Origin: Siphonodentalium dalli
Taxonomy: Eukaryota; Mollusca; Scaphopoda; Gadilida; Siphonodentaliidae
Direction: 5' to 3'
DNA: 64,000 nucleotides
Assembly (NCBI GenBank): GCA_032622095.1
Contig: CP136062.1
Span: 225,322,578-225,386,577, forward strand
A model generated the notes under the pieces. That model was not told the origin of the DNA. It searched no databases and saw only the letters and a list, made by a program, of their open reading frames with translations. A program made the position numbers and the translations under genes. Below, one piece after another: positions 5,895 through 61,318 of this stretch (the first letter of the stretch is position 1; every line of letters begins with the position of its first letter).

Positions 5895-7850
5895 AGCTAC
5901 TCGCAATACTATATCAGTGCATTGAGGGTGGGGCGTTTCGGGCATATGAGAGCCAATATACATGTATATGCACACACGACTATGTCAGTGCATTGATGGT
6001 GGGGCGGTGCGGGCATATGACAGCCAATATACATGTATATGCACACACGACTATGTCAGTGCATTGATGGTGGTGTGGTGCGGGCACATGACAGCCAATA
6101 TATACGCACACAAGACTATGTCAGTGCATTGGGATGGGGTGGTGCGGGCATATGACAGCCAATACACACACACGACTATGTCAGTGCATTGAGTTTGGTG
6201 TGGTGCGAGCATATGACGGCCAACATATACGCACACAAGACTATGTCAGTGCATTGAGAGTGGTGTGGTGCGAGCATATGACAGCCAATACACGCACACA
6301 AGACTATGTCAGTGCATTGAGAGTGGTGTGGTGCGGGCATATGACAGCGAATATATACATGTATGCACACAAGACTATGTCAGTGCATTGGCGATGGGGT
6401 GGTGTGGGCATATGACAGCCAATATATACGCACACAAGACTTTGTCAGTGCATTGAGTTTGGTGTGGTGCGGGCATATGACAGTCAATATATACGCACAC
6501 AAGACTATGCCAGTGCATTGAGTTTGGTGTGGTGCGGGCATATGACAGCCAATATATATGCACACAAGACTATGTCATTGCATTGAGGGTGGGGCGGTGC
6601 GGGCATATGACAGACAATATATATGCACACAAGATTATGTCAGTGCAATGAGGGTGGGGCGGTGCGGGCATATGCCAGCCAATATATACGCACACAAGAC
6701 TATGTCAGTGCATTGAGAGTGGTGTGGTGCGAGCATATGGCAGCCAATACACGCACACAAGACTATGTTAGTGCATTGAGGGTGGTGTGGTGCGGGCATA
6801 TGACAGCCAATATATACGCACACAAGACTATGTCAGTGCATTGGGGATGGGGTGGTGCGGGCATATGACAGCCAATACACACACAAGACTATGTCAGTGC
6901 ATTGAGTTTGGTGTGGTGCGAGCATATGACAGCCAACATATACGCACACAAGACTATGTCAGTGCATTGAGAGTGGTGTGGTGCGAGCATATGACAGCCA
7001 ATATATACGCACACAGGACTATGTCAGTGCATTGAGAGTGGTGTGGTGCGGGCATATGACAGCCAATATATACGCACACAGGACTATGTCAGTGCATTGA
7101 GAGTGGTGTGGTGCGGGCATATGACAGCCAATATATACGCACACAGGACTATGTCAGTGCATTGAGAGTGGTGTGGTGCGGGCATATGACAGCCAATATA
7201 TACGCACACAGGACTATGTCAGTGCATTGAGAGTGGTGTGGTGCGAGCATATGACAGCCAATATATACGCACATAGGACTATGTCAGTGCATTGAGAGTG
7301 GTGTGGTGCGGGCATATGACAGCCAATACACACACACAGGACTATGTCAGTGCATTGAGAGTGGTGTGGTGCGGGCATATGACAGCGAATATATACATGT
7401 ATGCACGCAAGACTATGTCAGTGCATTGGGGATGGGGTGGTGTGGGCATATGACAGCCAATATATACGCACACAAGACTATGTCAGTGCATTGAGTTTGG
7501 AGTGGTGCGGGCATATGACAGCCAATACGTACGCACACAAGACTATGTCAATGCATTAAGTTTGGTGTGGTGCGGGCATATGACAGCCAATATATATGCA
7601 CACAAGACCATGTCAGTGCATTGAGTTTGGTGTGGTGCGGGCATATGACAGCCAAAATATACGCACACAAGACTATGTCAGTGCATTGGGGTGGTGTGGT
7701 GCGGGCATATGACAGCCAATATATACGCACACAGGACTATGTCAGTGCATTGAGTTTGGTGTGGTGCGGGCATATGACAGCCAATACGCACACAAGACTA
7801 TGTCAGTGGATTGAGTTTGATGTGGTGCGAGCATATGGCAGCCAATAATC
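5895..7850. repeat. Satellite array, about 64-bp unit, about 30 copies
   Basis: The unit contains ACTATGTCAGTGCATTGAG, GTGGTGTGGTGCGGGCATAT and GACAGCCAATATATACGCAC. Length varies from about 58 to 68 bp through the TA/CA-rich spacer. Short reading frames on both strands repeat with the unit and are not genes. Confidence 0.95.
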
Positions 7851-28959: not shown

Positions 28960-29208
28960 CTATGGCATTGAGATTGCGAATGGGAGGCAGATCATCATGA
29001 TAGCAACCGACATCACGATTCCAGGCGAGCCATTAATGGAACACGCAACAACATCAGGTCGCTTTGTAGCGTTGTTTCTGTGGTGATCTATGACGCGGAA
29101 GCCACTGTCCCGGATGTCGTACACTTGGCCATAAGTCTTCAGTGGCTGAATTTTGTTCTGTACATAACCAGGAATTTCCTCGATGGATCCAGTCACAACC
29201 ATCATTCC
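28960..29208 (-). CDS. BPI-fold gene terminal exon with extra tail and hydrophobic C-terminus
   Basis: This exon of 82 codons plus TAG starts GMMVVTG, which closes the last BPI-fold strand. It continues with about 75 residues that have no counterpart in classical BPI/LBP: SIEEIPGYVQNKIQPLKTYG, then YDIRDSGFRVIDHH, then a sequon (NAT). The end is VACSINGSPG followed by IVMSVAIMMICLPFAISMP and stop. A small-residue patch, then about 16 hydrophobic residues and almost no cytoplasmic tail, is what GPI-anchor signals look like; a single membrane span is the alternative. The acceptor is GTATGTTTGCTTTCAG. The exon joins the previous one in phase 0 across a 10.1-kb intron, so attachment to the same gene rests on phase and continuity of the strand. 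No poly(A) signal was assigned. Confidence 0.75.
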   Translation of the reverse strand, partial: GMMVVTGSIEEIPGYVQNKIQPLKTYGQVYDIRDSGFRVIDHHRNNATKRPDVVACSINGSPGIVMSVAIMMICLPFAISMP

Positions 29209-39326: not shown

Positions 39327-39412
39327 CTCAAGATATATTATGCTTGTGTTTCTGCTGACTAGCGTGTCTGGCATGTGCGTCAATGGCCTCAGTGGAATGA
39401 GTTTCATAAGTC
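39327..39412 (-). CDS. BPI-fold gene exon with IPLRPL motif
   Basis: A split codon gives Arg, then LMKLIPLRPLTHMPDTLVSR and NTSIIYLE, ending in phase 0. The acceptor is TTTTCCTTTCAG and the donor is GAG|GTGAGA. IPLRPL sits at the conserved 'KGFPLP' position, and the last residues run into the final strand ('NFLLFGADVVYK' in BPI), completed by the first residues of the next exon. A TTAA-flanked element starts 43 bp upstream of the acceptor. Confidence 0.8.
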
Positions 39413-41031: not shown

Positions 41032-41104
41032 TATTAATTTTCTTGAACATCTTTCCGTACAAAATCTTGGGTCCAATTGCCATCATCATTATAAAATCGT
41101 TGCT
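41032..41104 (-). CDS. BPI-fold gene exon: helix before the IPLP motif
   Basis: The exon is 24 codons plus one base: SNDFIMMMAIGPKILYGKMF then KKIN. The acceptor is CTTATTTTGCAG and the donor is AATA|GTAAGT. It aligns with BPI '[25 protein letters not shown]', the amphipathic helix near the C-terminus. The phase agrees with both neighbours. Confidence 0.78.
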
Positions 41105-41945: not shown

Positions 41946-41959
41946 GGACAGTGGCGGAC

Positions 41960-44900
41960 TGACCGAATTAAATCAATGGCAAGCATGTTACACCACGAAT
42001 ACTTGGTTGGTTACCACACCAACAAATTACAATTTACTCCAGGGACACTGGCAGACTGACCGAAACCAATTAATGTCAAGCATGTTAAACCACGAATACT
42101 GGTGTGGTTACCGTACCCAACAATTAACAATGTTACTCCAGGGATAGTGGAAGACTGGCCGAAATCAAATAATGTCAAGCATGTTACACCACGAATACTG
42201 GTGTGGTTACCACACCCAACAAATAACAATAGTACTCCAGGGATACTGGACGACTGGCCGAAATCAAATAATGTCAGGCATGTTACACCACGAACACTGG
42301 TGTGGTTACCACAACCAACACTTAACAATGTTACTCCAGGGACACTGGACGACTGGCCGAAACCAAATAATGTCAAGCATGTTACACCACGAACACTGGT
42401 GTGGTTACCACACCCAACAAATAACAATGTTACTCCAGGGACACTGGAAGACTGGCGGAAACCAAATAATGTCAAGCATGTACGTTACAACACGAACACT
42501 GGTGTGGTTACCACACCCAACACTTAACAATAGTACTCCAGGTATACTGGACGACTGGCCGAAATCAAATAATGTCAGGCATGTTACACCACGAACACTG
42601 GTGTGGTTACCACACCCAACAAATAACAATGTTACTCCAGGGATACTGGACGACTGGCCGAAATCAAATAATGTCAAGCATGTTACACCACGAATACTGG
42701 TGTGGTTACCACACCCAACAAATAACAATGTTACTCCAGGGATACTGGAAGACTGGCCGAAATCAAATAATGTCAAGCATGTTACACCACGAATACTGGT
42801 GTGGTTACCACACCCAACAATTAACAATGTTACTCCAGGGATACTGGACGACTGGCCGAAATCAAATAATGTCAAGCATGTTACACCACGAATACTGGCG
42901 TGGCTACGGTACCCAACAAATAACAATGTTACTCCAGGGATACTGGAAGACTGGCCGAAATCAAATAATGTCAAGCATGTTACACCACGAATACTGGTGT
43001 GGTTACCACACCCAACACTTAACAATGTTACTCCAGGGATACTGGACGACTGGCCGAAATCAAATAATGTCAAGCATGTTACACCACGAATACTGGTGTG
43101 GTTACCACACCCAACAAATAACAATGTTACTCCAGGGATACTGGAAGACTGGCCGAAACCAAATAATGTCAAGCATGTACGTTACACCACGAACACTGGT
43201 GTGGTTACAACACCCAACAAATAACAATGTTACTCCAGGGATTCTGGAAGACTGGCCGAAACCAAATAATGTCAAGCATGTTACACCACGAATACTGGCG
43301 TGGCTACGGTACCCAACAAATAACAATGTTACTCCAGGGATACTGGACGACTGGCCGAAATCAAATAATGTCAAGCATGTTACACCACGAATACTGGTGT
43401 GGTTACCACACCCAACAAATAACAATGTTACTCCAGGGATACTGGAAGACTGGCCGAAATCAAATAATGTCAAGCATGTTACACCACGAATACTGGTGTG
43501 GTTACGGTACCCAACAAATAACAATATTACACCAGGGATACTGGAAGACTGGCCGAAATCAAATAATGTCAGGCATGTTACACAACGAACACTGGTGTGG
43601 TTACCACACCCAACAATTAACAATAGTACTCCAGGGATACTGGAAGACTGGCCGAAATCAAATAATGTCAAGCATGAACGTTACACCACGAACACTGGTG
43701 TGGTTACCACACCCAACAATTAACAATAGTACTCCAGGGATACTGGAAGACTGGCCGAAATCAAATAATGTCAGGCATGTTACACAACGAACACTGGTGT
43801 GGTTACCACACCCAACACTTAACAATGTTACTCCAGGGATACTGGACGACTGGCCGAAACCAAATAATGTCAAGCATGTACGTTACACCACGAACACTGG
43901 TGTGGTTACCACACCCAACAAATAACAATGTTACTCCAGGGATACTGGACGACTGGCCGAAACCAAATAATGTCAAGCATGTTACACCACGAACACTGTT
44001 GTGGTTACCACACCCAACAAATAACAATGTTACTCCAGGGATACTGGAAGACTGGCCGAAATCAAATAATGTCAAGCATGTTACACCACGAATACTGGTG
44101 TGGTTACCACACCCAACAATTAACAATGTTACTCCAGGGATACTGGACGACTGGCAGAAACCAAATAATGTCAAGCATGTTACACCACGAATACTGGTGT
44201 GGTTACCACACCCAACAATTAACAATATTACACCAGGGATACTGGAAGACTGGCCGAAATCAAATAATGTCAAGCATGTTACACCACGAACACTGGTGTG
44301 GTTACCACACCCAACACATAACAATAGTACTCCAGGGACACTGGAAGACTGGCCGAAATCAAATGCCAGGCATGTTACACCACGAATACTCGTGTGGTTA
44401 CCACACCCAACACTTAACAATGTTACTCCAGGGATACTGGACGACTGGCCGAAATCAAATAATGTCAAGCATGTTACACCACGAATACTGGTGTGGTTAC
44501 CACACCCAACAATTAACAATATTACACCAGGGATACTGGAAGACTGGCCGAAATCAAATAATGTCAAGCATGTTACACCACGAACACTGGTGTGGTTACC
44601 ACACCCAACACTTAACAATGTTACTCCATGGATACTGGACGACTGGCCGAAATCAAATAATGTCAAGCATGTTACACCACGAATACTGGTGTGGTTACCA
44701 CACCCAACACATAACAATATTACTCCAGGGACACTGGACGACTGGCCGAAACCAAATAATGTCAAGCATGTACGTTACACCACGAACACTGGTGTGGTTA
44801 CGGTACCCAACAATTAACAATATTACACCAGGGATACTGGAAGACTGGCCGAAACCAAATAATGTCAAGCATGTTACACCACGAACACTGGCGTGGTTAC

Positions 44901-45240
44901 CACACCCAACAAATAACAATGTTACTCCAGGGACACTGGAAGACTGGCCGAAATCAAATAATGGCAGGCATGTTACACCACGAATACTTGGTTGGTTACC
45001 ACACCAACAAATAACAATGTTACTCCAGGGATACTGGAAGACTGGCCGAAACCAAATAATGTCAAGCATGTTACACCACGAACACTGGTGTGGTTACCAC
45101 ACCCAACAATTAACAATGTTACTCCAGTGACACTGAAAGACTGGTAGAAACCAAACAATGTCAAGCATATTATTACACGAGGGGCATTGGCGCGGACTGG
45201 CCGAACCAAATCATTGACAATCATGTTACAACAGGACACT
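41960..45240. repeat. 99-bp minisatellite, about 32 copies
   Basis: The unit includes GGTGTGGTTACCACACCCAA, CAATGTTACTCCAGGGATAC, TGGAAGACTGGCCGAAATCA and AATAATGTCAAGCATGTTAC. Several copies carry a 4-bp GTAC insertion (103 bp). Copies alternate between GGAAGACTGG and GGACGACTGG types, suggesting higher-order units. As 99 is a multiple of three, long frames exist on both strands (up to 400 codons plus, 320 codons minus). The 4-bp insertions shift the frame and there is no codon bias, so I treat it as non-coding intronic DNA. Confidence 0.96.
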
Positions 45241-46201: not shown

Positions 46202-46244
46202 CTTAGCTGATCCAATTGTTGAATTCTTTATCGTTATGGTGCCA
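46202..46244 (-). CDS. BPI-fold gene 43-nt exon
   Basis: The exon completes the split codon (Asn) and reads GTITIKNSTIGSAK, ending in phase 0. The acceptor is CTTTTTTTCAG and the donor is AAG|GTGAGG. It matches BPI 'LDRLLLELKHSNIGPF', with STIGS at the SNIG position. Although short, it is supported by phase, splice sites and position between two other matching exons. I recall a 43-nt exon at this position in vertebrate BPI/LBP genes (to be checked). Confidence 0.78.
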
Positions 46245-48492: not shown

Positions 48493-48560
48493 TTCACTGA
48501 CATCAGATTAATCTTGCCATGCGTGTCATTGTGCAACATCTGAATGGGAATATCGGCATT
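48493..48560 (-). CDS. BPI-fold gene 68-nt exon
   Basis: The exon runs from NADIPIQMLH to KINLMSV plus two bases (phase 2), between CTAAAATTTCAG and AA|GTAAGTATG. It corresponds to the BPI segment '[23 protein letters not shown]'. The sequon NDT is present. An array of about 84-bp repeats (48135-48490) directly abuts the donor side. Confidence 0.8.
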
Positions 48561-49540: not shown

Positions 49541-49714
49541 CAGATCCATGGTAAAGAAGAGGTCGGTTGTGTTTCGGTTTTTGCACACGGTTTTAGCCAG
49601 TAGATCCATCGTCATGGTGACCTGTATTGACATCATCTCTGGGCGGATCTTCACACGGACGTTCTGCTCTGTTAAGTTGAATTCCACCGTCGCATTGGGA
49701 TAGAGTATCTTGGA
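49541..49714 (-). CDS. BPI-fold gene exon with long amphipathic strands
   Basis: This 58-codon phase-0 exon starts SKILYPNATVEFNLTEQNVR, continues VKIRPEMMSIQVTMTMDLLA and ends DLFFTMDL. The acceptor is CATTTGTAG and the donor is CTG|GTAAGT. It aligns with BPI 'KKFPNMKIQIHVSASTPP' through '[20 protein letters not shown]'. Three sequons are visible (NAT, NLT, NTT). A family-F foldback element begins about 65 bp upstream of the acceptor. Confidence 0.88.
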
Positions 49715-52597: not shown

Positions 52598-52657
52598 CTC
52601 GGGAAAATATCCGTGCATCATATTTATTGATAAATAGTCGCCCACCACGGTATGGAA
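52598..52657 (-). CDS. BPI-fold gene 60-nt exon
   Basis: This 20-codon phase-0 exon reads FHTVVGDYLSINMMHGYFPE. The acceptor is TTGTTCTTTTTACAG and the donor is GAG|GTGAGT. YFPE corresponds to the 'FLPEVAKKFP' turn of BPI. As I recall, vertebrate BPI/LBP genes also have a 60-nt exon here, which would mean conserved gene structure; this should be checked against an annotated gene. Confidence 0.82.
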
Positions 52658-54607: not shown

Positions 54608-55315
54608 AGTAGGACCCACCAGCATCATGTATATAGCAGATTAGTAGGACCCACCAGCATCATGTGTATAGCAGATAAGCAGGACCCACCAGCATCATGT
54701 ATATAGCAGATTAGCAGGACCCACCAGCATCTTGTACATAGCAGATTAGCAGGACCCACCAGCACCATGTGTATATCAGATTAGCAGGACCCACCAGCAT
54801 CATGTGTATAGCAGATTAGCAGGACCCACCAGCACCATGTGTATATCAGATTAGCAGGACCCACCAGCATCATGTGTATAGCAGATTAGCAGGACCCACC
54901 AGCATCATGTATATAGCAGATTAGTAGGACCCACCAGCATCATGTGTATAGCAGATTAGCAGGACCCACCAGCATCATGTGTATAGCAGATTAGCAGGAC
55001 CCACCAGCACCATGTGTATAGCAATTAGCAGGACCCACCAGCACCATGTGTATAGCAGATTAGCAGGACCCACCAGCACCATGTGTATAGCAGATTAGCA
55101 GGACCCACCAGCATCATGTATATAGCAGATTAGCAGGACCCACCAGCATCATGTATATAGCAGATTAGCAGGACCCACCAGCACCATGTGTATAGCAGAT
55201 TAGTAGGACCCACCAGCATCATGTATATAGCAGATTAGCAGGACCCACCAGCATCATGTATATAGCAGATTAGTAGGACCCACCAGCATCATGTATATAG
55301 CATATTAGCAGGACC
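54608..55315. repeat. 35-bp minisatellite, about 20 copies
   Basis: The unit is AGCAGGACCCACCAGCATCA followed by TGTATATAGCAGATT. Variants are C/T and A/G at fixed positions, and ATC-type and ACC-type copies interleave. Confidence 0.96.
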
Positions 55316-56095: not shown

Positions 56096-56100
56096 TCATG

Positions 56101-56250
56101 CATGGACATATTACCTGATCGTGTTCCAGGCGGGATAACTCTGTGCATGGACATATTACCTGATCGTGTTCCAGGCGGGATAACTCTATGCATGGACATA
56201 TTACCTGATCGTGTTCCAGGCGGGATAACTCTATGCATGGACATATTACC
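56101..56250 (-). repeat. 45-bp tandem repeat carrying the exon's 5' splice site
   Basis: Copies of CATGGACATATTACCTG (plus strand) start at 56101, 56146, 56191 and 56236. On the minus strand each gives CAG|GTAATATGTCCATG, so the real donor at 56249/56250 is followed by three more identical donors at 45-bp steps (exon ends 56205, 56160, 56115). The intervening sequence is open and encodes VICPCIELSRLEHDQ per copy. Confidence 0.92.
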
Positions 56251-56408
56251 TGTACAGTCACTTTCTTGGCGTGTTGTTGGAGCACCGTGCTGAACAAATC
56301 CTCGCCGACTGCCATGGTTAGCATGCTGTTTGTCTCGGGAATCTTCGCCAACACATGCGGTTGATACCTCACGAGCTGTTTTCTGTCATCTTGTGAGAAG
56401 GCATAGAC
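56250..56408 (-). CDS. BPI-fold gene exon with MLTMAVGEDLF motif
   Basis: This 53-codon exon, phase 0 at both ends, starts VYAFSQDDRKQ and ends HAKKVTVQ. The stretch MLTMAVGEDLFSTVLQQHAK lines up with [20 protein letters not shown] of BPI, the most recognisable motif of the C-terminal barrel. The acceptor is CACAACCCAG and the donor is CAG|GTAATATG. The donor sits at the edge of a 45-bp tandem repeat (56101-56250), and three further copies of the same CAG|GTAATATG donor follow at 45-bp steps. Reading through adds in-frame 15-residue repeats. Confidence 0.88.
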
Positions 56409-58806: not shown

Positions 58807-58904
58807 CTGGTTCACTATATATATGTAGTCTGCGCCCATCGTAATGTTCGAGGCGTGCATGAAGAATTCATCTCCAAAATCTATATCCTCTACTTCCAGA
58901 TTAA
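58807..58904 (-). CDS. BPI-fold gene exon: start of C-terminal barrel
   Basis: The exon takes phase 1 from the previous one (the split codon gives Phe) and continues NLEVEDIDFGDEFFMHASNI and onward to IYIVNQ, ending in phase 0 before GTAAGT. The acceptor is GTGTTTTTCAG. This matches the segment of BPI between the cysteine helix and the proline-rich linker. One sequon (NIT) is present. The family-D foldback at 58660-58771 begins 36 bp downstream of the donor. Confidence 0.83.
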
Positions 58905-60129: not shown

Positions 60130-61318
60130 TAAAATCACTATTACTTAATAGAAGCGTTTCCGTACGGGTGTCTTCGATTCATATCTATTATTTTATACCC
60201 AGGAAACTATATAAACCTTGTTATGGGAAGGGATAGACTATCTTTATACCCATGAAACTATATAAACCTTGTTATGGGAAGGGATAGACTATCTTTATAC
60301 CCAGGAAACTATATAAACCTTGTTATGGGAAGGGATAGACTATCTTTATACCCAGGAAACTATATAAACCTTGTTATGGGAAGGGATAGACTATCTTTAT
60401 ACCCATGCAACTATATAAACCTTGTTATAGGAAGGGATAGACTATCTTATACCCATGAAACTATATAAACCTTGTTATGGGAAGGGATAGACTATCTTTA
60501 TACCCATGAAACTATATAAACCTTGTTATGGGAAGGGATAGACTATCTTTATACCCATGAAACTATATAAACCTTGTTATAGGAAGGGATAGACTATCTT
60601 TATACCCATGAAACTATATAAACCTTGTTATGGGAAGGGATAGACTATCTTTATACGCAGGAAACTATATAAACCTTGTTATGGGAAGGGATAGACTATC
60701 TTTATACCCATGAAACTATATAAACCTTGTTATGGGAAGGGATAGACTATCTTTATACGCAGGAAACTATATAAACCTTGTTATGGGAAGGGATAGACTA
60801 TCTTTATACGCAGGAATCTATATAAACCTTGTTATGGGAAGAGATAGACCATCTTTATACCCCGGAAACTATATAAAACTTGTTATGGGAAGGGATAGAC
60901 TATCTTTATACGCAGGAAACTATATAAACCTTGTTATGTGACGGGATAGACTATCTTTATACGCAGGAAACTATATAAACCTTGTTATGTGAAGGGATAG
61001 ACTATCTTTATACCCAGGAAACTATATAAAACTTGTTATGTGAAGGGATAGACTATCTTTATACCCAGGAAACTATATAAACCTTGTTATGGGAAGGGAT
61101 AGACTATCTTTATACGCAGGAAACTATATAAACCTTGTTATGGGAAGGGATAGACTATCTTTATACCCAGGAAACTATATAAACCTTGTTATGTGAAGGG
61201 ATAGACTATCTTTATACGCAGGAAACTATATAAACCTTGTTATCGGAAGGGATAGACTATATTTATACCCAGGAAACTATATAAACCTTGTTATGGGAAG
61301 GGATAGACTATCTTTATA
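60130..61318. repeat. 53-bp minisatellite, about 21 copies, grown from a family-M end
   Basis: The unit is TATACCCAGGAAACTATATA, AACCTTGTTATGGGAAGGGA, TAGACTATCTTTA. The first part (60145-60245) matches 26510-26606 (ATCCATATCTATTATTTCAT-type block and the inverted terminus GATAGACCATCTTTA), so the array is an expansion of the right end of that element. Confidence 0.92.

Follow-up and report, generated by a model that had tools for sequence, protein, structure and literature searches.

The window analysed here (64,000 nucleotides) lies on contig C2 of the Siphonodentalium dalli genome, which comprises 2.23 Gb in nine contigs; no telomere repeat runs were found in the three contig ends read. 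It contains nine exons of a gene on the minus strand, from 58904 to 28963, which were found by alignment to an intronless relative, L006 (see below). When the nine exons were spliced, all junctions were GT..AG and one clean frame ending at a stop was obtained.

58807..58904, minus strand: exon a, donor CAG/GTAAGTGC (the slash marks the splice junction throughout)
56250..56408, minus strand: exon b, 159 bp, phase 0 at both ends, terminating at donor 1
52598..52657, minus strand: exon c, with the acceptor named in the original prediction
49541..49714, minus strand: exon d
48493..48560, minus strand: exon e
46202..46244, minus strand: exon f
41032..41104, minus strand: exon g
39327..39412, minus strand: exon h
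28963..29208, minus strand: exon i, the last coding exon, followed by the stop TAG

The acceptor preceding 52657 reads ttctttttacag/TTCCAT. An N-terminal exon is located upstream of the window gene, outside the window (C2:225402805-225402915), and its peptide is identical to that of paralog B (see below); without the N-terminal exons, the spliced window protein has 335 aa. The calculated U1 pairing of the exon b donor is moderate (-8.1 kcal/mol), the third weakest among the eight donors of the gene, and this donor is the sole one of the eight without a G at +5. The window is rich in minisatellites (60192-61318, 54611-55315, 41957-45172, 2-2898 and 5904-7847). A 51-bp array precedes exon a, and a long counterpart of it precedes paralog B.

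Four copies of one splice donor

Exon b ends with ..ACTGTACAG at 56250 on the minus strand, where a tandem repeat lies (45-bp period, 3.4 copies, 98% matches at 56098-56252, minus strand; Tandem Repeats Finder, run on the window). After the exon, GTAATATGTCCATGCATAGAGTTATCCCGCCTGGAACACGATCAG occurs twice exactly and once with one change, followed by a 17-nt partial unit.

56205..56249, minus strand: unit 1, the interval between donors 1 and 2, encoding VICPCIELSRLEHDQ
56160..56204, minus strand: unit 2, the interval between donors 2 and 3, same sequence as unit 1
56115..56159, minus strand: unit 3, the interval between donors 3 and 4, with one T-to-C change, encoding VICPCTELSRLEHDQ
56098..56114, minus strand: partial unit past donor 4, 17 nt of native intron start, GTAATATGTCCATGCAT

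The original prediction had placed four donors in this array, multiplied with a 15-codon period and with two cysteines in each repeat. The positions were confirmed: the first intronic bases of donors 1–4 on the minus strand are 56249, 56204, 56159 and 56114. Every donor reads CAG/GTAATATG at a spacing of 45 bp, with no difference among the four from -3 to +16 (19 nt), and each 45-bp unit makes up 15 codons with two cysteines. The frame is open across the three units, which translate as VICPCIELSRLEHDQ twice and then VICPCTELSRLEHDQ; the third unit differs by one I-to-T change and hence is not identical to the others.

The 20-nt donor block CAGGTAATATGTCCATGCAT was then used as a search pattern in the 2.23-Gb genome. 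There were 14 matches with 0–1 mismatch, all of them in the window gene and its two paralogs; the total was 24, 10 of which had two mismatches, and the reversed-pattern control gave 13. The repetition of the donor block is beyond chance. The same 17 nt, GTAATATGTCCATGCAT, follow the last donor in all three genes. No known structured RNA was found around the array (no Rfam match at E 0.5 or below for locus L001). These results confirm that a tandem repeat has multiplied the splice donor of one gene, and that the observation was real and exactly placed. As in the IFI6 type of minisatellite with several donors, the repeat unit holds a donor that is continuous with the exon end.

An intronless relative and two paralogs

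When the exon b protein was searched against the genome, the matches besides exon b itself were two close copies on C2 and a distant one (E 0.01) on C1, the last within an intronless open frame of 550 aa in L006.

C1:251213198-251214847 (L006 1699-3348), minus strand: L006 BPI-like frame, intronless, 550 aa
C2:225496465, plus strand: paralog B, the same exon b with five donors
C2:225799051, plus strand: paralog C, the same exon b with five donors, one reading CCG/GT

The L006 frame, which shares 49% identity with the spliced window protein, matched the Pfam family LBP_BPI_CETP_C (3.4e-6, 27.1 bits, cut-off 23). The 335-aa window protein, taken without its N-terminal exons, had no Pfam match at E 1 or below. 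The host gene is probably BPI/LBP/CETP-like, an assignment supported only through the relative, and the lipid-binding barrel of the original prediction likewise has support by way of L006 and not by a Pfam match of the window protein itself. Among solved structures there was no PDB match for L006 at E 1. A profile of the pair gave three neuraminidase matches (E 0.37–1.1), which were taken as chance, and a ferredoxin-thioredoxin reductase match to the frame spanning exon and array was dismissed as below the cut-off (E 0.38 and 0.8). L006 is either a retrocopy or an old intronless member of the family.

At the junction of exons b and c, L006 runs through without an insert (..QQHAKKVTVQ/FHTVV.. 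vs ..KQHARTVARQ/FDNVL..). The predicted zero-insert junction from donor 1 to the acceptor at 52657 is thus exact in L006, and since L006 aligns across it without an insert, joining donor 1 to this acceptor gives the ancestral product. The ancestral status of that product does not tell which donor serves today.

In B the full set of nine exons was found, and in C eight of them. Exon a of C was not found in a search that included 14 kb upstream of exon b, and the N-terminal exon present at the window gene and at B is not listed at C; C may therefore be truncated. Over the nine exons, 38 of 1007 positions differ between the window gene and B (dN 0.029, dS 0.077), so the two are recent copies under some coding constraint. 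These two genes form an inverted head-to-head pair (C2:225402915 to 225475604); C lies further along, on the strand of B, and may lack its 5' part. Copy number had been proposed to vary between individuals, and the variation that was found is between paralogs, with four donors in the window gene and five each in B and C. Because the window gene holds three units and B four, copy number must have changed since the two split.

Within exon b, the window gene and B differ at 11 positions, 5 of which are among the last 12 bases (window 56250-56261; L002), and the last 7 bases of exon b in B, CGATCAG, equal the end of the unit. A cluster of this kind anywhere in the nine exons has a chance probability of 0.014 (Fisher p 0.0004, for an interval picked after seeing the data). 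Conversion of the exon b end of B by the array is possible and is offered as a lead only.

LINE sequence within the repeat unit

Judged by its sequence, the unit is a chimera: it opens with 17 nt from the native intron start and closes with CAG, and about 25 nt in between are LINE sequence.

56204..56236, minus strand: LINE-identical stretch, 33 nt of unit 1 reaching 1 nt into the next donor, equal to LINE copy L013

This LINE part of the unit is a new finding, absent from the original prediction. The 33 nt are the longest identity between the unit and L013, and four further places match at 97% over the same stretch; it recurs in unit 2, and in unit 3 with one change. The stretch runs antisense to the frames of the LINE, as L012 and L014 show. 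A 26-nt unit pattern, allowing up to three mismatches, had at least 37 genomic matches, 11 of them in the three arrays and 26 elsewhere, vs 0 for the reversed-pattern control, which rules out chance as the source of the identity.

Twenty-three of the 26 dispersed copies were read, and LINE sequence was present on both sides in 20 of the 23. The exceptions were L019, with the downstream side alone, and L022 and L024, with the upstream side alone. In L014 the segment lies between two open frames of the opposite strand, one of which matched Exo_endo_phos (1.2e-9), with a second Pfam match, Exo_endo_phos_2, just below the cut-off. The other frame had no Pfam match and its ORF1 label is our interpretation; no reverse-transcriptase domain was found in the 3 kb read around L014, nor did the locus have an Rfam match at E 0.5 or below. 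The name LINE is therefore based on the endonuclease frame, the arrangement in two frames and the copy number.

Both joints of the chimera carry short shared bases. L013 has GCAT in common with the intron and CAGG in common with the exon-intron boundary (four bases each); the exons of B and C end with GATCAG, so the match at the second joint is GATCAGG there. The first joint reads GCATAG, as in the unit, in 4 of the 23 dispersed copies (L013, L022, L024 and L025), and most read GCAAAG. At two places, L022 and L024, ~50 nt of the LINE spacer are embedded in another kind of repeated sequence, which suggests movement of this short segment between repeat families. CAGGTGT is found in 3 of 23 LINE-type copies (L016, L023 and L025) vs CAGGCGT in 17 of 23; in these three it resembles a donor, on the opposite strand to that of the LINE frames.

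We consider an origin as a LINE chimera very probable. A template switch would be expected to leave such short shared bases at either joint, from which we infer that DNA synthesis just past the exon b donor was diverted: the new strand would have departed from the intron at GCAT, copied some 25 nt of LINE spacer sequence and rejoined the donor at CAGG, resulting in two donors 45 bp apart. Unequal exchange would then have brought the number of units to three in the window gene and to four in the paralogs. The template was perhaps not an intact LINE, because few copies carry GCATAG, L022 and L024 have other surroundings and L019 is without the upstream side.

The kept frame and the expected splicing outcome

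The frame was kept, as the original prediction had it: the period is 15 codons and reading is open through the three units. The weight placed on this was overrated. When cycled, 43% of the 45-mers of the window on the gene strand are open, and for shuffled units the fraction is 0.425; the unit itself is open in two of three frames on the gene strand and in one of three on the other. With 0.43 for openness and 1/3 for a period that is a multiple of three, a kept frame is a ~1-in-7 outcome by chance (~0.14), and we rejected it as evidence of selection, other frames being open too. The eleven complete units contain six distinct changes, four amino-acid-changing and two silent (counted by eye), which show no coding constraint, though their number is too small for a test of it.

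On balance we lean towards a minisatellite that has multiplied a 5' splice site through a LINE template switch and is predicted to yield mixed in-frame mRNAs. The four same-sequence donors would compete for U1, and their own U1 pairing cannot separate them, since all four are the same from -3 to +16. The expected mixture would contain mRNAs with 0, 15, 30 or 45 extra residues, two cysteines per unit, donor 1 giving the ancestral protein. The zero-insert form is expected to be in the mixture; that two or more donors are used appreciably is in our estimate an evenly balanced question. A single donor may take nearly all splicing, because the U1 pairing is moderate and nearby-bound factors can push the choice towards one donor; the relevant part of PMC5585400 describes such effects among competing donors, SRSF1 shifting the choice to intron-proximal sites and hnRNP A1 to intron-distal ones. 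We think that the longer forms would be mostly tolerated by-products and not a regulated switch; a switch both regulated and useful is distinctly improbable.

It is quite possible, although we would not bet on it, that the array is an inert intronic minisatellite, donor 1 taking essentially all splicing, the other copies being ignored and the open frame being due to chance. The product of donor 1 is the one matched by the intronless L006, the openness of the unit is unremarkable against the 45-mer background and the other frames, and one downstream donor in paralog C has decayed to CCG/GT. Against this, the downstream copies equal donor 1 over 19 nt, so that the site itself favours none, and IFI6 is described as using repeat-unit donors in the portion of PMC4526556 that deals with it. 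The opposite outcome, in which the intron-proximal (last) donor dominates and exon b now includes three units (four in B) as coding sequence, we regard as unlikely. Reading stays open through the last donor in all three genes, and the SRSF1 activity on intron-proximal sites stated in PMC5585400, as far as that section goes, would favour it, but it would place 45–60 extra cysteine-rich residues where L006 has no insert, in units that, few as their changes are, look free of coding constraint.

A regulated isoform switch kept by selection, its cysteine-bearing inserts adding a binding or linking surface, would account for an array that each of the three gene copies has retained with its period and frame unbroken. 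With only 38 of 1007 positions differing between the window gene and B, the array could persist in three copies so young without selection, and we hold this reading to be very improbable. Least credible, and barely plausible, is a step towards new introns, with donor 1 and the CAG of a later donor removable together as a small intron: 10 of the 11 complete units do read GT...CAG (the remaining one GT...CCG), but the units are without a clear pyrimidine tract, the duplication is located where an existing intron begins and not within an exon, and 45 nt is short for splicing as an intron. In its favour, duplicated AGGT sites are described as serving as donor and acceptor in the pertinent section of PMC3443670. 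That model of intron gain by tandem duplication resembles the present case in its tandem CAG/GT copies and GT...CAG units, as far as the same section describes it. It differs in that here an existing donor and intron start were multiplied, giving sites that, known from DNA, are candidates only. The competing 5' splice sites in DOK7 intron 4 likewise lie close together, but according to the part of PMC5585400 concerned they differ in sequence, are 11 nt apart and in one choice shift the frame; those of the window gene share one sequence, are spaced at 45 nt and keep the frame.

The minisatellite of human IFI6 (6-16/G1P3) has a 12-nt unit, repeated many times. It appears to be the closest precedent for the favoured reading, a tandem repeat whose units hold donors: as related in PMC4526556, in the passages on this gene, two downstream repeat units act as donors and three mRNA species result, and passages there and in PMC2572611 credit the work to Turri, Cuin and Porter (1995). 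Whereas donor use is reported for IFI6, it is predicted for the window gene, and the repeat here is of 45 bp with 3–4 units, is in part LINE DNA, lies in an unrelated gene and is common to paralogs. A limited literature search gave no further case of repeat units holding donors, and more may be in print. The window array belongs with IFI6 as a variant of that type, one in which a LINE contribution can be traced and paralogs form a series.

Four, five and five copies of one donor, one of them weakened, in a single genome make up a natural series on the choice among identical sites. The array also suggests how a splice site can come to be copied through a few bases of a mobile element, by a route that can be traced. 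Taken as one proposition, that a LINE-templated copying switch duplicated a 5' splice site as an in-frame cassette and set up an isoform ladder with 0–4 cysteine-bearing inserts is tentative and rather doubtful; if true, transposon DNA would enter proteins through splice-site multiplication, without a new exon. If the longer forms are made, they would give a BPI-like protein length variants by simple means.
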